The translations under genes and the position numbers were made by a program. Source: Xylophilus rhododendri (GTDB lineage: Bacteria > Pseudomonadota > Gammaproteobacteria > Burkholderiales > Burkholderiaceae_C). From it: a stretch of DNA of 64,000 nt. The number at the start of each line of letters is the position of its first letter. Positions within the stretch are counted from its first letter, which is position 1. The stretch spans positions 2,294,001 through 2,358,000 of the forward strand of contig NZ_CP047650.1 in assembly GCF_009906855.1 (NCBI RefSeq), given 5' to 3'. The notes under the pieces are model-generated. The model searched no databases. It saw nothing but the letters and a program-made list of their open reading frames with translations, and was not told the DNA's origin. Below are positions 1,704 through 64,000 of the stretch, piece by piece.

Positions 1704-2765
1704 ATGTCACCGATCCCGACCCGGCACGCCTTGCTGGATCGTTTTGCGCCCCCCGTTCTTGGCGCGTTTCCCGCAACCCCGGGCGGAATCGCCGCCCCGC
1801 CCCGCGCGTCCAGCATTTCGGCATCGTCGTTCTGCGGCTTGCAGGAACCGGAAGGCCACGGCGCCGCGATCGCGCTGCCGGCAATCGCCGGCCAAGCCGG
1901 CTGCGGCGACTTCGCCGCCCCGCCCGACAACCCGCCACGCCCCAGCTTCGTCATCGCCGGCAAGCGCCAAACCCAGAGCCTGTACGGCATGGGCATACAG
2001 CAGCTCGCTCACTTTTTCGGCGACTGCAGCCTGCACGCCCTGGATCGCGGCACCCGGCGCATGCTCCAGAAGCGCCAATCGACGCAGCTGCGGCGCTTCG
2101 GCGAGATGCCTCCACGCACCCTCGGCGAAATGCGGCTGCTGCAGGCCATCCGCAAGCCGGTGGGCCTGGTCGATCTGGCGCGCCACCGGCGCGGCGCCGA
2201 ACCGCTGCTGGTGGTGCTGAGCGGGCATTCAGGTCCCGGCTCCCGCTGCCTGGGCACCACACCCATGAGGGACGTGGCCGCATCGCTCCAGGCCGCCGGC
2301 TTGCGGGACGGCGACGTCATCTACCTGTCGGCATGCTTCGGCGCCGACTCGCGCAATACCGACAGCACCGACCCGGCCGTGCTGGCGGATTCAGCGGCCG
2401 GCAGCCAGGGCCAGGGTACCCGGCTGCTGCCGGCCGGGCAGCACCTGGCCGATGCGCTGGGCGGCCTGGGCCTGGGGCGCTGCGCCGTGGTGGCCGTGCA
2501 CAACTATGTGGAGACCCCGGCGCACAAGGACCTGCGCACCCGCAAGATCCGCTATCACGCCCATGTCGGCCAGGAGTACTCCTCCACGCAGACACCCCGC
2601 CCACGCCAGGCCATCGCCAGGGCGGCGCGGGTGTTTCGCAGTGGCAGGCCGCCTTCGGCGCTGCTGGCGGATCTCGCTGCCGGCGATCGGCAGGCGCTTG
2701 CACCGGCACTGGGCTTTCTGGATACCGTCACCCCCAGGCAGCTCGCGGCGCCGGCGGCAGCTTGA
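1704..2765 (+). CDS. Putative clan-CD (caspase-like) cysteine protease, possible secreted effector
   Basis: A 353-residue protein that I do not recognise as a named family. The core has the clan-CD pattern: hydrophobic strand then His (LLVVLSGHSGPG, His175) and, about 36 residues later, hydrophobic strand then Cys (DVIYLSACFGAD, Cys211), the His-before-Cys order of caspases, gingipains, CHAT and C80 (RTX self-cleaving) peptidases. The first ~60 residues are Ser/Pro/Ala-rich with no hydrophobic signal peptide, as in type III effectors. AGGAG lies 7 bases before the ATG. It stands alone, convergent with ruvB, and has a PIP-like repeat upstream. Fold assignment is inference from two motifs; the effector role is speculative. 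Confidence 0.5.
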   Translation: MSPIPTRHALLDRFAPPVLGAFPATPGGIAAPPRASSISASSFCGLQEPEGHGAAIALPAIAGQAGCGDFAAPPDNPPRPSFVIAGKRQTQSLYGMGIQQLAHFFGDCSLHALDRGTRRMLQKRQSTQLRRFGEMPPRTLGEMRLLQAIRKPVGLVDLARHRRGAEPLLVVLSGHSGPGSRCLGTTPMRDVAASLQAAGLRDGDVIYLSACFGADSRNTDSTDPAVLADSAAGSQGQGTRLLPAGQHLADALGGLGLGRCAVVAVHNYVETPAHKDLRTRKIRYHAHVGQEYSSTQTPRPRQAIARAARVFRSGRPPSALLADLAAGDRQALAPALGFLDTVTPRQLAAPAAA

Positions 2766-2783
2766 GGCGGCCTGCCCTGGCTC

Positions 2784-3848
2784 CTAGGAGAACAGGTCGG
2801 CGCCCCGTGAAGGCGGCGTCACCTGCAAATGCCGGTAGGCCGCCAGGGTCGCGATGCGGCCACGCGGCGTGCGCTGCAGAAAGCCCTGCTGGATCAGATA
2901 GGGCTCGATCACGTCCTCGATGGTGCCGGCCTCCTCGCCGATGGAGGCGGCGATGTTGTCCAGCCCCACCGGCCCGCCGTCGAAGCGGTGGATCAGCGCT
3001 TCGAGCAGCTTGCGGTCCATCACGTCGAAGCCTTGCGGATCCACGTCCAGCATCTTCAGCGCCCGGTCGGCGATCGGCAGGGTGATGCGGCCGTCGCCCT
3101 TCACATCGGCGTAGTCGCGCACCCGGCGCAAGAGGCGGTTGGAGATGCGCGGCGTGCCGCGCGAGCGGCGGGCGATCTCGAAGGCGCCCTCCTCGTCGAT
3201 CGGCACGTTGAGCAGCCCGGCGCTGCGTTTGACGATGCGCGCCAGCTCCTCGGGCGTATAGAACTCCAGCCGCGCCACGATGCCGAAGCGGTCGCGCAGC
3301 GGGTTGGTCAGCATGCCGGCGCGGGTGGTGGCGCCGACGAGCGTGAAGGGCTGCAGGTCGAGCTTGATGCTGCGCGCGGCCGGGCCTTCGCCGATCATGA
3401 TGTCGATCTGGTAGTCCTCCAGCGCCGGATAGAGGATTTCCTCCACCACCGGGCTCAGGCGGTGGATCTCGTCGATGAAGAGCACGTCGTTCTTCTCGAG
3501 ATTGGTCAGCAGCGCGGCCAGGTCCTTGGGTTTTTCCAGCACCGGGCCGCTGGTCTGGCGCAGGTTCACGCCCAGCTCGGCGGCGATGATGTGGCTCAGC
3601 GTGGTCTTGCCCAGGCCGGGCGGGCCGAAGAGCAGCACATGGTCCAGCGCCTCGTCGCGTTTGCGCGCGGCGCCGATGAAGATCTCCAGCTGCTCGCGCG
3701 CCTTGGCCTGGCCGATGTATTCGTCGAGCAGCTTGGGGCGCAGCGCCCGCTCGATCGCCTCTTCCTGGGGCGATGCGGGCGAAGCCGATATCACCCGGGC
3801 GGGCGAGGGGCCGGGCGGCGGGGCGAAATCGTCGGTGTGGATGGTCAT
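2784..3848 (-). CDS. ruvB: Holliday junction branch migration ATPase RuvB
   Basis: 354 residues, normal family length. AAA+ motor that with RuvA drives branch migration at Holliday junctions in recombinational repair. Walker A GPPGLGKT at 75-82, Walker B FIDEIHR with D126/E127, sensor region GATTRAGML, arginine-finger region NPLRDRFG, and the C-terminal winged helix ending [16 protein letters not shown]. The start gives a ~25-residue acidic/Pro lead before the conserved core. ruvA lies about 4 kb away on the same strand rather than adjacent. Confidence 0.98.
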
Positions 3849-3921
3849 CTGGAGAGCGGTACGCGCAAAGGCGGATTGTGCCCAAGAGTGCAGTCACAAT
3901 CCGGCGGATGAAAGTGAGTAC

Positions 3922-4575
3922 GTGAGCCATCCCCTGAGCCGCTGGGCCGCGGGCGTCCTGCGCGACAGCCTGCTGCTGCTGACCCGGGCCTTCACCCGGG
4001 TGCGCGCCGTCCGCCCGCCCGGCGAGCCGCGCGCGGAGCAGACCCTCTACTTCGCCAACCACAACAGCCATGGCGACTTCATGCTGCTGTGGGCCACCCT
4101 GCCGCCGGCCCTGCGCCGCGACACCCGGCCGGTGGCCGGCCGCGACTACTGGCTGGCCTCCCGCCTGCGCCGCTTCGTCGGCGAGAAGGTGTTCTGCGCG
4201 CTGATGATCCGCCGCGACGCATCCCAGCCCGGCCCCTCGCCGGTGGACCAGATCGTCGAAGCGCTGCACGAAGGCAGCTCGCTGATCTTCTTTCCCGAGG
4301 GCACCCGCAACATCGGCGAAGAGATCCTGCAGCCCTTTCGCAGCGGTCTCTTCCACGTGGCCCTGGCCTGCCCGCAGGTGCGGCTGATGCCGGCCTGGAT
4401 CGAAGGCACACGTGAGCTGCTGCCCAAGGGCGCCTGGCTGCCGGTGCCCTGCCGCTGCACGGTGCACTACGGCACGCCGATCCAGCGCCTGCCCGGCGAG
4501 GAGAAGGACGCCTTCATCGCCCGCGCGCGGCAGGCCCTGCTGGCGCTGCGGCCGGCGCAAGCGGGCCGGACCTGA
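3922..4575 (+). CDS. 1-acyl-sn-glycerol-3-phosphate acyltransferase (PlsC family)
   Basis: 217 residues from a GTG at 3922; no ATG is in frame nearby and the longer open frame is antisense to ruvB. The HX4D acyltransferase motif is at H47-D52 (NHNSHGDF) and the phosphate-binding PEGTR motif at 125-129 (FFPEGTRN). The family transfers an acyl chain to lysophosphatidic acid or a related lysolipid at the inner membrane. It is divergent from ruvB with about 73 bases between starts. It is shorter and less hydrophobic at the N-terminus than housekeeping PlsC, so it may be an accessory acyltransferase. Confidence 0.85.
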   Translation: MSHPLSRWAAGVLRDSLLLLTRAFTRVRAVRPPGEPRAEQTLYFANHNSHGDFMLLWATLPPALRRDTRPVAGRDYWLASRLRRFVGEKVFCALMIRRDASQPGPSPVDQIVEALHEGSSLIFFPEGTRNIGEEILQPFRSGLFHVALACPQVRLMPAWIEGTRELLPKGAWLPVPCRCTVHYGTPIQRLPGEEKDAFIARARQALLALRPAQAGRT

Positions 4576-4671
4576 CTCGGCTGTCATGCCGACGTCACCG
4601 TCCTTTCACAGAATCCGCGGCTGATCCGCGCGGCCCGCGCCGCGTTCTTGCGACCCGCCACTGATTCACCG

Positions 4672-6821
4672 ATGCCCCTCATTCCCAGCCGCATGCCGGC
4701 CGCCCTGACCCTGCTCGCCTGCGCCGCCCTCACCGCCTGCGGCGGCGGCAACGATCCCGTCATCGTCGGCGGCGGCGGCAGCACCGTCCAGCCCGTGAGC
4801 ACCACCCTGGCCCCCTGGCCGGCGGCTCCAGCTATACCGGCACCATGAGCTTCGGCGACACCGTCTCCCTGACGGTGGACAGCACCGCCAAGACGGTCGT
4901 CCTGAAGTTCCTCGACTCGCACTTCGGCCTGGCCGGCGCCATCAGCAGCGCCTACACGGTGCAGGCCGACGGCTCCTGGCTGGCCCAGGGCTTCAGCGCC
5001 GTCGCCAACTCCGGCGCGCCCGCAACGCTCACCAGCACCCTGCTGAGCGCCATCCGCCTGCGCCTGCACAGCGAGACCAACCTGATCACCGGCACGCTGG
5101 AGAAGCTGCCCAACCTCAAGCGCGCCGACGGCAGCCTGCTGCAGGGCGAGATCGTCGCCTCCAACCTCGGCGCGGCCAGCCTGTCGGCCGTGGCCGGCAC
5201 CTACAGCTTCGTGCGCCAGTCCACCGGCTACAAGGCCGACGGCAGCGTGGCCGCACCCACCGCCGTGGCCTACGGCCAGCTCAAGGTCGCGGCCGACGGC
5301 AGCGTGCGCGTCTGCGACAGCACCGCCTACAGCGACAGCTGCAGCGGCGGCCAGACCGGCACCCTGGCGGCCGATGCCGACCAGGCCAACTACCCCGGCG
5401 CCCTGGTGCTGACCCTCGCCGGCAGCCGCGTCGGCCGCGTCGTCGTGGCCGCGCGCAGCGGCGCCACCACCCTGTCGGTGGACGCCTATGCCGGCGCATC
5501 CGACGGCAGCAGCACCACCGGCACCTGGCTGCTGCAGTCGGCCGCCACCGCGGCCGCATCCACCGCGCTCGACGGCGAATGGCTGTGCGCCGAGCCCGAA
5601 GTGCTGTCCACCGGCCTGCCCTCCGGCCGCACCCTGCGCCACTACGTGACCGTGGCCGGCGGCACGCTGCAGACCGACACGGTCGATACCGACATCAGCC
5701 TCAGCGCCAACACCGTGAACGGCCTGTTCACCGGCACCTGGGCCGACACCAAGGCCAATGCCCGCGCCTTCGTGCCGCTGTCCGCAGGCACCGTCTACTA
5801 CGTCGGCAACACCGGCAGCACCACCGCCACGGCCGGCGCCTTCTCGGGCGTCTGCCACGCCCTGCCCGCCCAGGCCACGGTCAGCACCTACCTGAGCGCG
5901 CCCACCACCGGCACCGCCGTGATGACCATCACCCTGGCCGATGCCCGCCCCACCCAGCCGGCCATCGGCTACGACCAGGTCTATTACAAGCAGGCGCGCT
6001 ACCGCAACACCGCCAACAGCTCGACGCAATACCGCAAGGAGTTCGACGACTGGTGCGAGGCCGCTGGCCTGACCGACGCCAAGAGCAAATCGGTGGTGCT
6101 GGGCACCTCCAAGATCAACGACTCCAGCACCTTCACCTGCTCCGGCTCCAGCACCGCCCTGGACACCGCCAGCATGAAGAGCGCCGTGGTCGGCCCCAAG
6201 GGCCTTCTGTACCTCACCGACGGCCACCACAGCTTCACCAGCTTCTGGCACGCACCGGACGGCGGCGGCTCCACCGTCAAGATCCCGCTCGTCATGAAGG
6301 GCAACTACAGCAGCTATACCAACGCCGCCTTCTGGCGCGCCATGCGCGCGGCCAAGACGGTCTGGCTGAAGAACCCCGACGGTACCGCCATCACCCCGGC
6401 CGACCTGCCGACCCAGCTGGGCATCGGCAACGGCCTGCAGGACGACCCCTACCGCTCGCTGATCTACTTCACCCGCGACGTCGGCTACAGCCAGCCGGCC
6501 AACAGCACCGAGTTCCTGGAGTTCTACTGGGCCGAGTGGCTCAAGGCCGCGCCGCAGAGCATCGACCTGTCCAAGTACACGCTGACCGACGCCACCAGCT
6601 ACCTGTCGGCCATCCGCGCCGCCGCCACCGACATGGTGGGCACGGCCGACACGACCATCATCGGCTCCTCGGGCAAGACCGCGCTGGAGATGGGCAAGCT
6701 CGCCGCCTTCAGCGAGACCGAGTTCGCCACCCTGAACACGGCCACCACCGAGGCCAAGCCCGGCAAGCTGGCCTATGCGCTGGCCTACCGCGCCAGCCTG
6801 GCGGCCGCCGCCACCAAGTAA
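4672..6821 (+). pseudogene. ParB-like-nuclease-domain lipoprotein, interrupted by a -1 type frameshift
   Basis: The N-terminus is read from the ATG at 4672 (MPLIPSRMPAALTLL, lipobox LTAC, then GGGN), but this frame stops at 4848. The rest, 658 residues ending at 6821, is open in another frame from before 4845. Joining them at the C-run near 4810-4820 gives a continuous lipoprotein (...STTLA / GGSSYTGTMSFG...). Residues after about 365 of the second part resemble the ParBc_2 (PF08857) putative ParB-like nuclease domain: IGYDQVYYKQARY, then GPKGLLYLTDGHHSFTSFW with the DGHH signature. The middle part looks beta-rich and repetitive. If the shift is a sequencing error, this is an intact ~715-residue envelope protein. 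Confidence 0.65.
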
Positions 6822-6840
6822 GCCGCGCATCCGCCACGCA

Positions 6841-6872
6841 AAAAGGGCAGCCCGCGGGCTGCCCTTTTTTTA
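6841..6872. terminator. Bidirectional intrinsic terminator
   Basis: A perfect palindrome AAAAGGGCAGCCCG / CGGGCTGCCCTTTT followed by more Ts on the + strand and preceded by As, so a U-tract follows it on the - strand too. It sits between the convergent lipoprotein gene (+) and ruvA (-) and should stop both. Confidence 0.9.
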
Positions 6873-6886
6873 TGCCGGCCGGGAAC

Positions 6887-7459
6887 TCAGCGCGCCAGCG
6901 ACTTCAGCGCCAGCTTGATCCCGTCGCTCACGCCCACGTCCGCCGGCAGCGCCTTCAGCGCCGCCGCGGCTTCCTTGTCGTTGTAGCCCAGGGCCAGCAG
7001 CGCCTGCAGGATGTCGGCCTGCGACTCGCTCGAAACACTGGCCCGCGCGCCCATGTCCGCGCCGAGCTTGCCCTTCAATTCCAGCAGAAGGCGCTCGGCC
7101 GTCTTCTTGCCGATGCCCGGCACCTTCACCAGCCGCCCCGCCTCCTGCAGCGTGACGGCCTGCGCCAGGTCCGCCACGCCCATGCCCGAAAGCACCGCCA
7201 GCGCGATGCGCGGCCCCACGCCCGAAATCTTCACCAGCTGGCGGAAGGTGTCGCGCTCCTCGTGCGTGCCGAAGCCGTAGAGCAGCTGCGCATCCTCGCG
7301 CACCACGAAATGGGTCAGCAGCGTGACCTTCTCGCCCAGGCCCGGCAGGTTGTAGAAGGTGCTCATGGGCACATCCACCTCGTAGCCCACGCCCTGGCAG
7401 TCCACCAGCACCTGGGGCGGGTTCTTTTCGGCCAAGAGGCCCTGGAGTCGTCCGATCAT
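6887..7459 (-). CDS. ruvA: Holliday junction branch migration protein RuvA
   Basis: 190 residues from the ATG at 7459, which gives the canonical MIGRLQGLL start; the much longer open frame upstream is antisense to phoH. N-terminal OB fold ([13 protein letters not shown]), central tandem helix-hairpin-helix motifs ([16 protein letters not shown] and [18 protein letters not shown]) and a C-terminal helical domain ([17 protein letters not shown]) that contacts RuvB. It tetramerises on Holliday junctions. It is divergent from phoH with about 72 bases between starts. Confidence 0.97.
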
Positions 7460-7531
7460 GGGCGCAGATGCTAACCGCACGGCAGCTGCGGCCTGAGGCG
7501 ACAATAGCCATCCGACCACCCGCCCACGCCA

Positions 7532-8494
7532 ATGATCGTCCGCCACACCTTCACCCCGCACAACAACACCCGGCTCTCCAACCTGTGCGGCCCGACGGAC
7601 GAAAACCTGCGCACCATCGAACAGGCGATGGAGGTCTCCATCGCCCACCGCCACGAGCAGTTCAAGGTCGACGGCCCCAAGGCCAAGGCGCTCAAGGCGA
7701 TGGAGCTGCTGCAGGCGCTCTACCAGATGGCCGAGCGGCCGATCCCGCAGGACACGCTGCAGCTCATGCTGGGCGGCGACACCGACCTGGGCGAGATCAG
7801 TGCCGAGTCGTCCCTGCTCACCCGCCGCAAGGGCCTGGCCGCGCGCTCGGCCATCCAGGAGCTGTACCTGGAGAACATCGCCAGCCACGACATCACCTTC
7901 GGCATCGGCCCCGCCGGCACCGGCAAGACCTACCTGGCGGTGGCCTCGGCCGTCGATGCGATCGAGCGCAACGCGGTGCAGCGCATCGTGCTGACCCGGC
8001 CGGCGGTGGAGGCCGGCGAGCGCCTGGGCTACCTGCCGGGCGACATGGCGCAAAAGATCGATCCCTACCTGCGGCCGCTCTACGACGCCCTCTACGAGCT
8101 GATGGGCCACGACAAGGTGCACAAGGCCTTCGAGCGCAACCAGCTGGAGGTCGCGCCGCTGGGCTTCATGCGCGGCCGCACGCTCAACAATGCCTTCGTG
8201 ATCCTGGACGAGGCGCAGAACACCACACCCGAGCAGATGAAGATGTTCCTCACCCGCCTGGGCTTCGGCAGCCGGGCGGTGATCACCGGCGACGTGAGCC
8301 AGATCGACCTGCCCAAGGGCTCGCCCAGCGGCCTGATCGATGCCGAACGGGTGCTGCGCCGGGTGCGCGGCATCGCGGTGACGCGCTTCAGCAGCGCCGA
8401 CGTGGTGCGCCATCCGCTGGTGGCGCGCATCGTGGATGCCTACGACGCCGCGCGCAGCGCGCCGCCGGCGGCCGCCGAGCCGGGAGAGGTCTGA
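7532..8494 (+). CDS. ybeZ: PhoH family ATPase (YbeZ)
   Basis: 320 residues. P-loop [10 protein letters not shown] with Walker A at 126-133, then [18 protein letters not shown], a Walker [10 protein letters not shown] (D226/E227) and GDVSQIDLP, all typical of PhoH/YbeZ. Proteins of this family are linked to rRNA maturation and ribosome quality control together with YbeY, whose gene follows one base after this stop codon, so the pair is translationally coupled. Confidence 0.95.
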
Positions 8495-8495
8495 G

Positions 8496-8954
8496 ATGGC
8501 GCTGCCCGAACTGACCCTGTCGCTGCAATTCGCGCGCTTTCCCGAAGCCGCCGAACACCGCGCCGCCCTGCCCCGCGCCAAGGTGGCGCGCTGGATCCGC
8601 CATGCGCTCGAAGTGCCGGCCGAGATCACCGTGCGTATCGTCGATGCCGAGGAAGGCCAGGCGCTCAACCGCGACTACCGCCAGCGCGACTACGCCACCA
8701 ATGTGTTGACCTTCGACTACACCCAGGAGCCGGTCTGCACCGCCGACCTGGTGCTGTGCGCGCCGGTGGTGGCGCGCGAGGCGGCCGAGCAGAACAAGCC
8801 GCTGGCCGAGCACTACGCCCATCTGCTGGTGCACGGCACCCTGCATGCGCAGGGCTGGGACCACGAGGACAGCGACGAGGACGCCGAGGCGATGGAGGCG
8901 CAGGAGATCGAGATCCTGGCGGGCCTGGGCCTGCCCAACCCCTACGAATCCTGA
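8496..8954 (+). CDS. ybeY: Endoribonuclease YbeY, rRNA maturation factor
   Basis: 152 residues. The zinc-binding motif H-x3-H-x5-H is present as H113, H117, H123 ([11 protein letters not shown]). The ATG at 8496 begins one base after the PhoH stop, and GGGAGAGG inside the end of phoH serves as ribosome-binding site. YbeY is a metal-dependent single-strand RNase for 16S rRNA 3'-end processing and ribosome quality control. The conserved [16 protein letters not shown] region is also present. Confidence 0.97.
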
Positions 8955-9008
8955 GGCCGCGCCCGGCCGCCAGCGCGACCGGGCATCCAATCTGCTTGCC
9001 TGCCCCAC

Positions 9009-10337
9009 ATGTCCGACCTCGACCTGCCCGAAGTACCCGCCGAAGCCCTGGAACCGGTCGACGACACCCACTACCGCCAGGCCTTCGGCGCGCTGTGCGA
9101 GGACAAGGTGGTCAGCGCCAGCACCACCATCTACGCGGCCAACGGCACCAAGCTGATCGAGAAGGGCTCGCGCATCGACCGCGAGTTGTACGCCCGGCTG
9201 GTGCAGCACAAACTGCGCGATCCGATCGACCAGCAGATCGGCGTGGAAGGCATGGTCAGCGCCGACAGCCTGCTGGCCCTGGCCGAGGAACTGATCGCCA
9301 CCCACCCGGTGCCGCGCCTGCTGGCCGCAGCCCTCGGCCAGCGTGAGCCGCTGCTGCAGCCGCTGCGCGAGGTGCCGCTGCCCGGCCCCATCGCTCTCAA
9401 GCTCACCCTGATGCGCGACCGCTATGCCGGCCTGCTGCAGCATGCGATGGCCGGCGCCCTGGTGGCGCTGTTCCTGGCCGACCGGCTGGGCCTGCCCGCC
9501 GCTGACCGCGCCCAACTGGCCACCGCCGCCCTGCTGCGCGACATCGGCATGCTGCACATGGACCCGTCCTGGCTGCTGCCGCAGCGGCGCCTGAGCGCGG
9601 CCGAGCGGCGCCACCTGCATGCGCATCCGATCACCTCGATGCTGCTGATCCGTACCCAGGGCGGCTATGCGCCCGAGGTCGCCACCGCCGTGTTCGAGCA
9701 CCACGAACGGCTGGACGGCAGCGGTTATCCGCGCGGCGCGCGCGGCGAGAAGATCTCGGCGCCGGGCCAGATCCTGCTGCTGGCCGAACTGGTCTCGGCG
9801 CTAGGGGAAAAGTTCGGCGATGCCTCGCCGCATCGCCTGGGCCTGGTGCTGCGGCTCAACCGCCGTGCGTTGCCGCTCGCCCTGGTGGCCCAGTTGCTGC
9901 CGGCCCTGCAGGGCGAGCCGCTGCCGACGGCCGCGCGGGTGGAGGCGGCGTCGCAGAAGTTCGCCGTCATCGCCAGCGCCTTCGAGCGCTGGACCGAACT
10001 GCAGGCCGGCGTGGAGCGCAGCCAGCTCACCGGCCCGGCCCATGCCCTGCTGAACGCCCGGCTGGCGGGCCTGCGCCAGTCGCTGATCGAGGCCGGCGGC
10101 GCGCCGGAGGAGCCGCACCTGCTGCTGGCCCATGCGGCCGGCGACGAACTGCACATCGCCGATGCGCTGGCCCTGGGCCGCGAGGCGCTGTGGCAGCTCG
10201 ACACCATCTGCGGCGACGTGCTGCAGCGCTGGCCCCGGCTGGCCGAGACGGATGGCGCGGAATCGCCGGCCGAATCGGCGGTGGCGCAGTGGTGCGACGC
10301 GACCGGCGGCATGCTGGCCGGCCTGGCCGAAGCCTAG
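9009..10337 (+). CDS. HD-GYP-like phosphohydrolase domain protein with an altered HD motif
   Basis: 442 residues. Residues ~140-260 match the HD-GYP family of c-di-GMP phosphodiesterases: H145, the HD-motif helix, H202/H206, HHE (231-233) and DGSGYP (236-241). In the HD signature (normally LLHDIG) the His is Arg: [10 protein letters not shown]177-D178. A metal ligand is therefore lost and activity is doubtful; it may be a sensor or scaffold. N-terminal ~100 residues precede the HD region without an obvious REC domain; the C-terminal ~170 residues are helical and unassigned. No membrane segment is seen. Ends convergently with dtd, their stop codons sharing bases. Confidence 0.8.
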
Positions 10338-59459: not shown

Positions 59460-59536
59460 GGCGCTTTAGCTCAGTCGGTTAGAGCGATGGAATCATAATC
59501 CACAGGTCCGCGGTTCGAATCCGTGAAGCGCCACCA
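59460..59536 (+). tRNA. tRNA-Met (anticodon CAT)
   Basis: A 77-base cloverleaf with encoded CCA. Acceptor stem GGCGCTT (59460-59466) pairs with AAGCGCC (59526-59532), discriminator A, CCA at 59534-59536. D arm GCTC/GAGC, anticodon loop ATCATAA with CAT, T arm with GGTTCGAAT. The first anticodon-stem pair is A-C. Elongator Met is the likeliest; an Ile(k2CAT) role cannot be excluded from sequence alone. Its 3' end is a typical integrase target. Confidence 0.93.
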
Positions 59537-59545
59537 AATTTGAAC

Positions 59546-59580
59546 AAGCCTCTCAGGTCATCGACTTGAGAGGCTTTTTC
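59546..59580 (+). terminator. Intrinsic terminator of the tRNA
   Basis: Perfect 10-bp stem AAGCCTCTCA (59546-59555) with TGAGAGGCTT (59567-59576), 11-base loop, then TTTTTC. It directly follows the tRNA. The opposite-strand gene at 59558-59965 ends inside this hairpin. Confidence 0.9.
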
Positions 59581-59965
59581 TTTGGTCGATCAGTGCTCGC
59601 CGCCCCAGTTCGAAAAGCAGTTCCTGAGGGTCGGGCCGCACCCAGGGCCCACCGTCCAGAGGTACGAACTCGCATCCCAGGTGCGCCACTATCTGTGCAA
59701 TCCGGGCGATGCGGCCCGGCTCCAGGATTTCGGTCGAAAGGGTCGCGTAGGCCGATCCCGCGATGGACTGTGGCAGTTCGATCCAGTTGGAGCCGTCACC
59801 GTAGAGGCAAGCACCGTCCGCCAAGTCGGACCGACACATCGAGGCCTGAGCCATGCAATGAGCTTCGTCGAGCCGGGTGGCGGACAAACCATCCAAGCCG
59901 TCGCACAAGCTGCACTCGCCCGCGTTCCAGACAAGCCGGACGAGCTTAAAACCTAGCTGATTCAT
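59558..59965 (-). CDS. Hypothetical protein, orphan
   Basis: 135 residues, start MNQLGFKLVRLVWNAGECS. It has several Cys in the first half (ECSLCDG, HCMAQASMC), no signal peptide, and an ordinary composition ending PQELLFELGRRALIDQRK. Its stop lies within the tRNA terminator. An overlapping + frame is less protein-like. I do not recognise the family. It is the first gene beyond the tRNA and is likely island cargo. Confidence 0.5.
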   Translation of the reverse strand: MNQLGFKLVRLVWNAGECSLCDGLDGLSATRLDEAHCMAQASMCRSDLADGACLYGDGSNWIELPQSIAGSAYATLSTEILEPGRIARIAQIVAHLGCEFVPLDGGPWVRPDPQELLFELGRRALIDQRKSLSSR

Positions 59966-60126: not shown

Positions 60127-60393
60127 ATGCCCATGTCCCCAGATGAAAAGAAGCAGAAGCCCGCAGTCCTCGTCGCCTTCGGCGTGGCCGTCAGGCGCTA
60201 CCGCAAAGAAAAGGGCTTGTCCCAAGAGGCGTTCGCCGATCAGTGCGGCATTGATCGCAGCTACATGGGCGGGATCGAACGAGGTGAGCGGAATGTGGCT
60301 TTGCTCAACATCGCCCGGATCGCGCAGACGCTTGGGATGGAACTGTCTGTGTTTTTTGTTGCGCTGGACGCTTACGGCGAGGCAGTAGATTAA
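60127..60393 (+). CDS. XRE-family helix-turn-helix regulator
   Basis: 88 residues. HTH_3 core [51 protein letters not shown] split over ~20-75, a typical phage-repressor-type domain. ATG at 60127, or 60133. It stands just inside the tRNA-flanking island and may be an island or control protein of the neighbouring module. Confidence 0.9.
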
Positions 60394-60834: not shown

Positions 60835-62802
60835 TCAAGGCCGTAAAGCTTGCGCCAAAATTTCTGCACCGACGATTTCCTCAGCAGATTTTTTCAACAT
60901 TTTTAAGCTCTTATCCCCCGTGACCAAACCGGCAAAGGAATCACACGAATATTCATTCTTGAGGTAAGAAAATATTGCAGCAAGTCGCAAACGATGAGAG
61001 ACATCCCAATTCCCTAACCATCCTAGGTCAGGAAGCCAAGGCGAGATAATATCTAAAGCACGCCATGGCAGCCGTCCTTTTAAAGAGAGGCGGTGCACAT
61101 TATCGAAAAACTGCTCAAGCAACAAGCGGCCACCCGTATCACCGCAGGCAAACGCCAAGCCAACCAAGAAAACTTCAAGCGTTTCCCGTTTGTCCTCAGA
61201 AACATCGATTGCCAAGGGCTGTAAGACACGCATCCATGGATCTGTACCAATTGCAATCACGCTCTCGTCCAACCAGTGCATGGCTTCTGCCAAGTCATAC
61301 ATCAGGCTGACACGATTCACGCGGGCCATTACATCGGAATTTAGTAGGTTCTGCGGCGATCTAATTAGCGAGCTAACCCATGCAGCGCCAATGGGCGCAG
61401 AACCACCGTCCAAAGCGGTAACGACCTCCAAAGCCGACTCTGACGGGAAATCATCGACGATATAGTCTGCCAATTGCCAGTCATCGCGAAAAATCAAGCT
61501 CGGTATCAATGATCGAACAACGCCGTGGCCTTTCGGCACCAGTTTCAAAATTGAAAGTAGTGTTGTATTGTCAAGTACAGATATATCACAAGAATCAAGC
61601 AATTCTGGCCGACTAGAAATCATGCGGCCCCGAAGTGCAGGGTATTTCGTTGTTTGACGCCAAAAATCGTCTTGTGGCATTGAAGCGGTAATTACTTTGA
61701 AAACTTTCCCTTCGAATTCGGTAGAGGGCTGCGCAGTTTTTTCTGCAAGGTGCAACAGATCTTGAGGTCTGCTAGACCAAAGATGAGTGAGCCGCTCGAG
61801 GCCAATACTAGAGGGTTCCGGGAATGTTTCACTTCCACCCTGAGCCAAGAAAAACCAAAGTACGTCTAGCTGGGTGGCTGTCACAAGCGTGCCGTCAATG
61901 AGGTCTTGTTTTAGACTGATAGCGTCTTCGCGTTCAGGAAACGCGTCCAAGACAAGACCAAGCACTTCCGATGCGCCATCAAACTCGCCAGAAACTTGTG
62001 CCATTCCAAGTTTTACCAATGGACGGAACGAACCTTTTTGGCGGCGAACGTCCTGACCATATTTCCAGAGAAAAGGGCGCAATAAGCCACTTTCGCCTGC
62101 CAAGGCATCCGCCATAGCAGCATCGATCCAAACTGGCCGATCAAATTGGTCACCCTGTGATTCGACCAAATCGAGCTGCAAATTGAAATCAAATTTAACT
62201 GCTCCAGCTGTCCGCGTATCACGAGAAACAGCCGTCGAAAAGCGGAAATTCCTTCTTAGCGTGGGCCATTGTTGTGCCCATATGTCAAAAACTGCTGAGT
62301 CGATTTCTCCGGCTCTAGCTACCTTTATGCCCGTCGACCCACCGTCGTACAATGCGGCATAGATTTTCAACAAAGCATCATAAGAAAAATCGAAAGACCG
62401 CACGCCACGGGAAACACCGTTTGGGGGCAAAACAATAGTACTTTTATAACTGTGATACTGAGAATTGATTTCAGGCCGTCGAAAAACGGAGGCAAGCAGA
62501 GAAAGGTCTCCAAGCACTTCGAAAACTTGTAAATCAAGTAAAAGCACGTGCGTCCATACGCAGCCTGGGCGCGGCATTTCAGGCGCGAGCCAAGTCTTCA
62601 TCAGCGCATAACGACCGATGTTCGGCATGGGCACGCCCGTGTAATACCCATCGGCGCCAGGGAAAACTACCCCAGGAGCAAGGTCACTCAACTCAGCCAG
62701 ATCCGACAACTCAGCGCCAAGGTGCATCGACGACGCGAGTAATCTATGACCATCGTCGTAGCCGAAAACACACTGGTCTAATTTCATTGGAAACTTATTC
62801 AT
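60835..62802 (-). CDS. GTPase-associated protein 1 (GAP1)-like protein
   Basis: 655 residues from the ATG at 62802, whose ATGA overlaps the stop of the GTPase gene. The N-terminus has the GAP1-N landmarks: FGYDDGHRLLASS (13-25), LSDLAPG, YALMKTWLAPEMPRPG with CVWTHVLLL (~65-89), then FRRPEI. The rest is a long helical, Leu/Asp-rich region without further motifs I can name, fitting GAP1-M/GAP1-C. In the work of Aravind and colleagues such proteins accompany double-GTPase (DO-GTPase) proteins in predicted biological conflict systems. The DNA is clearly AT-richer than the core genome. The 3' end abuts the IS remnant, so the C-terminus may be truncated. Confidence 0.75.
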   Translation of the reverse strand: MNKFPMKLDQCVFGYDDGHRLLASSMHLGAELSDLAELSDLAPGVVFPGADGYYTGVPMPNIGRYALMKTWLAPEMPRPGCVWTHVLLLDLQVFEVLGDLSLLASVFRRPEINSQYHSYKSTIVLPPNGVSRGVRSFDFSYDALLKIYAALYDGGSTGIKVARAGEIDSAVFDIWAQQWPTLRRNFRFSTAVSRDTRTAGAVKFDFNLQLDLVESQGDQFDRPVWIDAAMADALAGESGLLRPFLWKYGQDVRRQKGSFRPLVKLGMAQVSGEFDGASEVLGLVLDAFPEREDAISLKQDLIDGTLVTATQLDVLWFFLAQGGSETFPEPSSIGLERLTHLWSSRPQDLLHLAEKTAQPSTEFEGKVFKVITASMPQDDFWRQTTKYPALRGRMISSRPELLDSCDISVLDNTTLLSILKLVPKGHGVVRSLIPSLIFRDDWQLADYIVDDFPSESALEVVTALDGGSAPIGAAWVSSLIRSPQNLLNSDVMARVNRVSLMYDLAEAMHWLDESVIAIGTDPWMRVLQPLAIDVSEDKRETLEVFLVGLAFACGDTGGRLLLEQFFDNVHRLSLKGRLPWRALDIISPWLPDLGWLGNWDVSHRLRLAAIFSYLKNEYSCDSFAGLVTGDKSLKMLKKSAEEIVGAEILAQALRP

Positions 62803-63692
62803 TCTTCCGACAGCAACCACACAAGCGGAGCTGTCAGATCATGGTCCGTTTCCGCCGGGCCAACCACACGAATTCGGCGACTCGCACTAGGCTGCTGTGC
62901 GATTAATTTGATTGCATCAGCATCCTGTAGATCAGCGCCTTGGGCCGAAACACCATAAATTCTTGTACGAAATGTTTCCTCGTTAGATCTTAAAAACTGA
63001 CTGACTAGAGGCATGCATTCGGTAAGCCATTCGACAGGCGAAATTTTTCTGGCTTCTACTAAATCCCACGCGGAGATAATGATCACTAGACGTCGGCGGC
63101 GCGGCGCAAAGGGAAGACACAAGAGATCGCTCAGAATTTGTACGATGCGAACCTGGGCTGGAATAGCCTTAGGTGACCACTCTTCGGCTTCTTGGGCAAT
63201 TCCTACCCGGTCGGATTCTGGCTGGTCACCGCTAATCTCTGACACAGAATCACTAGCGCCCGCCGGTACCGAAGCATTGAGCTCGAGGATCGACATAGTG
63301 TCACCCTTAAGATCCGCGCCGATGAAAAACAATATTCCATCATCTTCGGAGACTGCCTCAACAAAATCAGGCTTGCTTTGTCGGGCTTCAACTTGTATGT
63401 CAAACGCCTCGCCAGCCAAATCAGGAAAATAGGCGACGCCTTTACTTCCAGTATGAGTATCCAGAAGCTTGATCTTCACATTTACATCACCGCCGTACTG
63501 TGATGTACGGGGAATCTTTTGAAAAGTCCTCCAAGCCTGCGCGATAAGATTTAAATATTTCAGATCACCATCATAGTCATCTAGCAAGAGTCTCGATTTC
63601 ACTTCGCCGGCACTAACCAAATGCCAAAGCGCAGCCAGAAAGGTGCTTTTTCCGGACGCAGGGAGGCCCATGATCACAAAATTCGACTCCAC
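62799..63692 (-). CDS. P-loop GTPase of the GAP1 module (DO-GTPase1-like)
   Basis: 297 residues from a GTG at 63692, 2 bases after the previous stop. P-loop GLPASGKST (9-17), switch-II-type YFPDLAGEAFD (D91, G94), a hydrophobic strand VIIISAWD where the NKxD motif would be (W209-D210, degenerate). It resembles the first GTPase of the double-GTPase pairs that travel with GAP1. Predicted cytoplasmic switch that senses an invasion signal and passes it to effector components. Low GC and coupling to both neighbours mark the operon. Confidence 0.75.
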   Translation of the reverse strand: MESNFVIMGLPASGKSTFLAALWHLVSAGEVKSRLLLDDYDGDLKYLNLIAQAWRTFQKIPRTSQYGGDVNVKIKLLDTHTGSKGVAYFPDLAGEAFDIQVEARQSKPDFVEAVSEDDGILFFIGADLKGDTMSILELNASVPAGASDSVSEISGDQPESDRVGIAQEAEEWSPKAIPAQVRIVQILSDLLCLPFAPRRRRLVIIISAWDLVEARKISPVEWLTECMPLVSQFLRSNEETFRTRIYGVSAQGADLQDADAIKLIAQQPSASRRIRVVGPAETDHDLTAPLVWLLSEE

Positions 63693-63694
63693 GG

Positions 63695-64000
63695 TCAGCC
63701 CCTCATAAGCAAACGATCAAATTCATTGACAAGTTGCGGCATTTCGGGGCCCGGCGATTTGGCTTTAGGCCTAACGGCTAGCCAGCTCTTAAACAACGGC
63801 TCCATTCCGTAACCTGCAGCAACGGTACCGGTGGGGTCGCGTGCAGCAACATGAAAAACAGATATCTCCCCGAATTTTCCCATGTATGTCTCGATAAACC
63901 GGCGCTCAAAATCTTCCAACACTCCCTTGGCCACCGCTGCATCCGGACCAATCAACAAGTCCCATTTAGTAGTAACAATCTGAATTTCGCAGTCAATTGA
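63695..64000 (-). CDS. C-terminal part of a second GTPase (DO-GTPase2-like), cut by the window edge
   Basis: The frame is open from the window end. The first residues SIDCEIQIVTTKWDLLIG contain a G4-type TKxD motif (T-K-W-D), and the rest (AAVAKGVLEDFERRF, FHVAARDPTGTVAAGYGMEPLFKSWL) is the end of a GTPase domain, about 101 residues in the window. Its stop is 2 bases before the next start. The N-terminus with P-loop lies beyond 64000. It is the upstream gene of the operon. Confidence 0.7.
   Translation of the reverse strand, partial: SIDCEIQIVTTKWDLLIGPDAAVAKGVLEDFERRFIETYMGKFGEISVFHVAARDPTGTVAAGYGMEPLFKSWLAVRPKAKSPGPEMPQLVNEFDRLLMRG

Follow-up and report, generated by a model that had tools for sequence, protein, structure and literature searches.

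A predicted GAP1-N1 conflict operon without a zinc ribbon in Xylophilus rhododendri and a candidate arginine finger in its GAP1 protein

At the right-hand end of a 64,000-nucleotide stretch of the 5.87-Mb genome of Xylophilus rhododendri (NZ_CP047650.1, positions 2,294,001–2,358,000; hereafter, the window), three tightly overlapping minus-strand genes encode two GTPases and a GAP1-type protein. To what kind of system do these genes belong, and how might its GTPases be switched? An earlier interpretation made from the letters of the window (the sequence-only reading) had proposed a GTPase-centred conflict system with the missing GTPase N-terminus, and perhaps the effector gene, beyond position 64000. 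The operon was read onward past the window end in the same genome, in an extended region named L002 (L002 position + 58000 = window position), and this region contained the whole DO-GTPase2 gene and the predicted effector gene, which encodes a phosphoesterase joined to a GAAD domain, together with a GASH gene. We interpret the locus as a horizontally acquired, zinc-ribbon-less, five-gene GAP1-N1 conflict operon that is switched by GTPases, is probably directed against phages or other invading elements, and works by the mechanism proposed below. The probability that we assign to this interpretation as a whole is about 0.45. The data presented here support its gene content, intact frames, catalytic motifs, rarity, and mobility, together with the invariance of Arg78 and the predicted fold of GAP1.

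The genes were arranged on the minus strand in the transcription order phosphoesterase–GAAD, GASH, DO-GTPase2, DO-GTPase1, and GAP1. The first gene (L002:7751–9016, minus strand, beyond the window) encodes a protein of 421 amino acid residues from a TTG start, upstream of which GAGG was seen by eye, and matched PF00149 (Metallophos) and PF19976 (GAAD) with 45.3 and 64.7 bits, respectively. The second (L002:6657–7739, minus strand, beyond the window) encodes the all-helical GASH protein of 360 residues (PF19994, 105.4 bits). DO-GTPase2, with 321 residues (L002:5695–6660, minus strand), is the TKWD-containing GTPase cut by the window, which holds its C-terminal 101 codons (63695–64000). The in-window piece scored 20.6 bits against PF19993, below the cut-off, whereas the whole gene scored 147.3 bits, and the match is therefore not due to chance. 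DO-GTPase1 (62799–63692, minus strand) has 297 residues and matched PF19975 with 214.8 bits. GAP1 (60835–62802, minus strand) has 655 residues from an ATG, or 661 from an alternative GTG start at 62820, and its GAP1-type N-terminus matched PF20012 (GAP1-N1) with 90 bits against a cut-off of 27. As whole genes, all five components scored above their Pfam cut-offs, the GAP1 and DO-GTPase matches by a wide margin.

The DO-GTPase1 and GAP1 frames share 4 bp, and DO-GTPase2 ends 2 bp ahead of the DO-GTPase1 start. Because adjacent genes throughout show either 4-bp overlaps or gaps of 2–11 bp, the five genes probably form a single transcription unit. DO-GTPase1 contains the Walker A motif GLPASGKS, the G3 motif PDLAGE, and SAWD in place of the G4 motif NKxD, which is the degenerate motif pointed out previously; [ST]xWD occupied this position in all five aligned DO-GTPase1 sequences, including that of X. 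rhododendri. DO-GTPase2 contains GERNGGKT, SERAGE, and TKWD as Walker A, G3, and G4, respectively. The operon is complete, with intact open frames and kept catalytic motifs, and the coordinates and motifs given for its three in-window genes in the sequence-only reading were correct. One GAAD and one DO-GTPase1 were detected in the genome.

The GAP1-N1 "GTPase-centric" conflict system was predicted from gene neighbourhoods by Kaur et al. (2020, eLife; PMC7159879); its anti-phage role is likewise a prediction of that paper, and the system concept and the idea of GAAD–GAP1 coupling originate there. No experiments on DO-GTPase/GAP1 systems were found in the literature searched. As these systems are described in the main text of PMC7159879, all five genes of the present operon match them: two paralogous DO-GTPases upstream of GAP1, a GAP1 of the N1 type, GASH, and a calcineurin-type phosphoesterase as the effector domain coupled to GAAD. 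The same text names as characteristic of GAP1-N1 systems that one DO-GTPase carries an N-terminal zinc ribbon, and reports zinc ribbons in 60% of all DO-GTPases. The present operon differs in this respect, with no cysteine before the Walker A motif of DO-GTPase2.

To place this difference, a quick tree of 81 rows was used, in which long branches were flagged by the tool; L086, L088, and rows with a DO-GTPase1 outside 250–420 residues were excluded. The X. rhododendri row fell in a clade of 12 rows, also holding Bradyrhizobium, Pseudomonas, Lelliottia, Xenorhabdus, and Parachitinimonas, with a Shimodaira–Hasegawa-like approximate likelihood ratio (SH-aLRT) support of 100. The zinc-ribbon pattern was missing in all 12 rows; 11 of them have a full-length N-terminus with 0 or 1 cysteine, and the remaining one (L062) has a shortened N-terminus. 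A one-off loss in the Xylophilus genome was rejected on this ground. The G3 motif of DO-GTPase2 was (S/T/A)ERAGE in all 12 members. The closest DO-GTPase1 row, likewise in this clade, was that of Camelimonas (57% identical). Over the whole tree, the pattern was missing in 29 of 80 labelled rows, including one cut by a contig end (L138), and the fewest zinc-ribbon changes numbered seven, some of which rest on cut or misread N-termini. Because its DO-GTPase2 sits in a clade without the zinc ribbon, the system is assigned by sequence as a zinc-ribbon-less variant of the predicted GAP1-N1 kind.

How the GTPases might be switched was considered on the AlphaFold2 model of GAP1 (predicted local distance difference test score (pLDDT), 93.1; predicted template modelling score (pTM), 0.83). 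In the model, the N-terminal GAP1-N1 domain appears longin-like and is followed from about residue 224 by a helical repeat solenoid. Among the 50 rows listed in the fold comparison, all six rows for the N-terminal region were GTPase regulators, with modest Z scores. The main text of PMC7159879 makes no mention of a longin, a roadblock, or a GTPase-activating function for GAP1. Residue 78 of GAP1 (codon at 62569–62571, minus strand, reading frame checked) was arginine in 86 of 86 GAP1 rows, and no other arginine was so conserved. The eleven GAP1 proteins longer than 760 residues keep Arg78, several of them despite an otherwise different loop. Arg78 lies between model strands 64–72 and 82–90, that is, in the β4–β5 loop; the model and the 86 rows together place a conserved arginine in the loop between the fourth and fifth strands, where longin-domain GTPase-activating proteins (GAPs) have theirs. 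The results suggest that the invariant arginine is placed like the GTPase-off arginine of eukaryotic longin-domain proteins.

GATOR1 (NPRL2) and FLCN–FNIP2, which act on the Rag pair, C9orf72–SMCR8, which acts on ARF1, and Avl9/DENND6A combine a longin-like domain with an arginine conserved between β4 and β5, as the GAP1 model appears to do; the Rag pair also resembles the mechanism proposed here in using two paralogous GTPases as the switch. GAP1 differs from these proteins in that DENN is replaced by a helical solenoid and no sequence relationship to the longin-domain GAPs (NPRL2, FLCN, SMCR8, and Avl9) is detectable, and we therefore describe it only as possibly working like them, not as a member. 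A second longin domain was not seen, although no search aimed at one was made. In bacteria, the Ras-like GTPase MglA is reported to be regulated by the GAP MglB, whose roadblock domain is related in fold; MglB may offer a bacterial parallel, although with roadblock rather than longin topology. A viral structure library gave no match to the GAP1 model at E ≤ 0.001, and many top rows were repeat proteins. From the model, it is possible, if short of probable, that GAP1 is a longin-domain GAP with Arg78 as its finger, acting on a two-GTPase switch as a bacterial immune counterpart of the Rag–GATOR1/FLCN switch of TOR signalling.

In the proposed mechanism, DO-GTPase1 and DO-GTPase2 would constitute the switch pair, which GAP1 would bind via its longin-like N-terminal domain. 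With Arg78 on the β4–β5 loop as an arginine finger, GAP1 would keep both GTPases GDP-bound. Scaffold and sensor functions would fall to the GAP1 solenoid and GASH, and GAAD would dock the phosphoesterase. A signal from an invader would lift the finger or load GTP, the assembly would change, and the phosphoesterase thus freed would degrade a nucleotide or cyclic nucleotide, whereupon the infected cell would stop growing. The GAP activity, the resting state, the trigger, the substrate, and the cell arrest are the steps that we infer.

A competing explanation, which we consider rather doubtful, is that GAP1-N1, though longin-like, provides a platform for GTPase binding or acts as an adaptor or an exchange factor, as do the longin pairs of Mon1–Ccz1 and TRAPP, and that Arg78 merely shapes the loop. 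Longin domains are used by exchange factors as well as by GAPs, as reported in PMC8534245 and PMC10933270, and residues near Arg78 were nearly as conserved (G80 in 85/86 rows, V82 in 84/86, and T84 in 79/86, with serine in the other seven), as expected of a structural loop. Against this explanation stand the position of Arg78 in the finger loop and its unmatched conservation among the arginines, even where that loop has otherwise diverged. That the operon is an ordinary published GAP1-N1 system with nothing special about GAP1 is unlikely: the longin match, with its modest Z and missing sequence support, could reflect a chance likeness of small alpha–beta folds, but the six matches were exclusively to GTPase regulators, and both the strand order and the position of the invariant-arginine loop agree with longins.

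The effector and GASH were also analyzed. The phosphoesterase contains the metal-binding motifs of the calcineurin type (D-x-H, GD, GNHD, H, and GHxH), whose conservation was 90% or higher across 59 aligned rows of relatives. The family profile was nearest in sequence to the phosphohydrolase 2dxl/2zo9 and to Rv0805. We take the former to be GpdQ and the latter to be a cyclic-nucleotide phosphodiesterase. Our best guess for the substrate is a nucleotide or cyclic nucleotide, and a nucleotidyl phosphodiesterase was predicted for such effectors in the main text of Kaur et al. (PMC7159879). For GASH, a model of the relative from Pseudomonas entomophila (L064), the one protein modelled besides GAP1, had no clear structure match, and the X. 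rhododendri protein matched T6SS_FHA_C weakly (E = 0.15).

For a view of the wider family, the DO-GTPase1 alignment was used in a scan that yielded 104 related places, of which the best 80 were kept. With profiles built in this analysis, all five components were detected in 70 of these loci; 68 showed the plain order phosphoesterase–GASH–DO-GTPase2–DO-GTPase1–GAP1, and two had one gene split. Among the other ten loci, L141 is cut where GAP1 would be expected, and the phosphoesterase was missing from nine. Six of these nine (L073, L090, L101, L103, L132, and L138) are found at a contig end or no more than about 1.4 kb from one, two have other candidate effectors, and the remaining one is L108. 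In L121 (Mucilaginibacter), a SEFIR-domain protein (L121:7107–7940, plus strand) occupies the phosphoesterase slot upstream of GASH; a GAAD was suspected in it by eye and not found on search. In L139 (a Parachlamydiaceae genome bin), GAP1 is followed by serine-protease-like and EndoG-like nuclease genes (L139:7186–10318, plus strand), a pairing reminiscent of the nuclease–protease pairs described in PMC12799240 but with a different nuclease fold. The effector slot can thus change, yet the phosphoesterase was nearly constant (71 of 80 loci) in this sample, which was drawn by DO-GTPase1 likeness with four of five query rows from phosphoesterase systems, and the idea of a freely shuffled phosphoesterase was rejected. 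A further region, L061 (3025–15620), contains GASH–DO-GTPase2–DO-GTPase1–GAP1 without a phosphoesterase, with a nucleosidase-like gene after GAP1, beside four candidate Tn7-type tnsA/tnsB/tnsC/tniQ genes read by eye.

The five gene trees were compared for 56 loci in which each of the five genes was present and within set length limits, after exclusion of four near-duplicates. Their agreement (Spearman 0.61–0.84) far exceeded the maximum with shuffled labels (0.26), and the cassette therefore largely travels whole. In these quick trees, the distances of GAP1 were closest to those of DO-GTPase2 (0.84) and least close to those of the phosphoesterase (0.61), a hint that GAP1 may have DO-GTPase2 as its partner. 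For signs of a defence island, 120 of the 225 frames in the near flanks and 120 of the 223 in the far flanks were surveyed with PADLOC and Pfam, and the first 25 families were viewed of 79 (near) and 67 (far) for PADLOC and of 96 and 95 for Pfam. Among the families listed, which give no protein counts, integrases and restriction/methylase genes occurred in both near and far flanks, and no near-to-far gradient was seen.

The operon lies in a block (L002 about 2000–9500) with a GC content of about 48–54%, against mostly 64–73% around it, in agreement with the AT-rich island proposed before. A tRNA-Met (CAT) gene was located by ARAGORN and Rfam (RF00005) at the left edge (59460–59536, plus strand), beside the operon as in the sequence-only reading; the term tRNA-Met island is supported as a position only. 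When the tRNA end region was compared with the remainder of the 38 kb read, no exact direct repeat of at least 12 bases was found (longest shared word, 11), and integration by the tRNA 3′ end was rejected for want of repeat evidence. The insertion sequence remnant that had been suggested was not borne out: two pieces had no Pfam family, and one of them, searched against plasmids, gave no match. A mobile remnant can be supported only on the opposite side of the block, where a 63-residue piece at the right edge (L002:9251–9439, minus strand), which had no Pfam integrase match, shared 60% identity with a site-specific integrase from a plasmid (E = 2e-14). The left neighbour, made up of the tRNA-Met and a gene that by eye resembles a peptidase, is conserved, with matches running 42–52 bases past the tRNA in five of six congeners; the query ended 64 bases past the tRNA, and these matches do not mark the end of homology. 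The right neighbour consists of a dehydrogenase and an amidohydrolase (Pfam), which relatives match in pieces only, at best 67% over about 710 bases. Two further frames lie between the tRNA and GAP1: a 135-residue frame directly after the tRNA (59558–59965, minus strand), with no Pfam, PADLOC, or NCBIfam family at E up to 1, and an 88-residue HTH_3 regulator (60127–60393, plus strand), whose closest PADLOC model is named control protein (E = 1.9e-21).

GAP1-N1 exceeded its cut-off in 2 of 199 relatives including the genome itself, the other being a member of the same order (G140), and thus in 1 of 198 others; it was found in none of the six congeners and in no other member of the same family, as expected of an island rather than core genes. 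The sequence-only reading is supported in both respects, in that the GAP1 and DO-GTPase models match and the genes are not core. With the genome counted each time, it was found in 3 of 369 genomes drawn from the class and 4 of 398 drawn from the phylum. DO-GTPase1 relatives occurred on 20 plasmid records, 14 of them predicted to be conjugative, and in two records inspected, a metallophosphoesterase, GASH, and three "hypothetical" genes had the expected sizes and order. In one of these, a conjugative pAsa9-like plasmid of Aeromonas salmonicida (L143), the cassette, which matches in layout and whose products are annotated as metallophosphoesterase, GASH, and hypothetical proteins, adjoins a recombinase gene. 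No DO-GTPase1 relative was found in 50,697 phage records, and one was found in IMG/VR, on a contig (L142) that keeps GAP1 and Arg78. A horizontal origin of the operon is well supported.

This mobility is also what an addiction or plasmid-maintenance module would show, and the operon might be such a module or a general stress switch rather than an anti-invader defence. The plasmid records, the integrases, resolvases, and conjugation genes among the flanking genes of relatives, and the low GC and integrase remnant adjoining the operon itself are all consistent with that explanation, which we nevertheless regard as improbable: an operon of five genes, with two GTPases as a switch and a slot for exchangeable effectors, looks more like a triggered response than like a toxin–antitoxin pair, and in L139 protease-like and nuclease-like genes follow the core.

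The kind of system to which this operon belongs has been known as a prediction since 2020; what is added here is a concrete, Arg78-based idea of how its switch may work. Should GAP1 prove to be a longin GAP, the name GAP1 would be literally correct, the chemistry of the switch would become accessible through a single residue, Arg78, and the design of two GTPases and a longin GAP known from eukaryotic nutrient signalling would extend to bacterial immunity.
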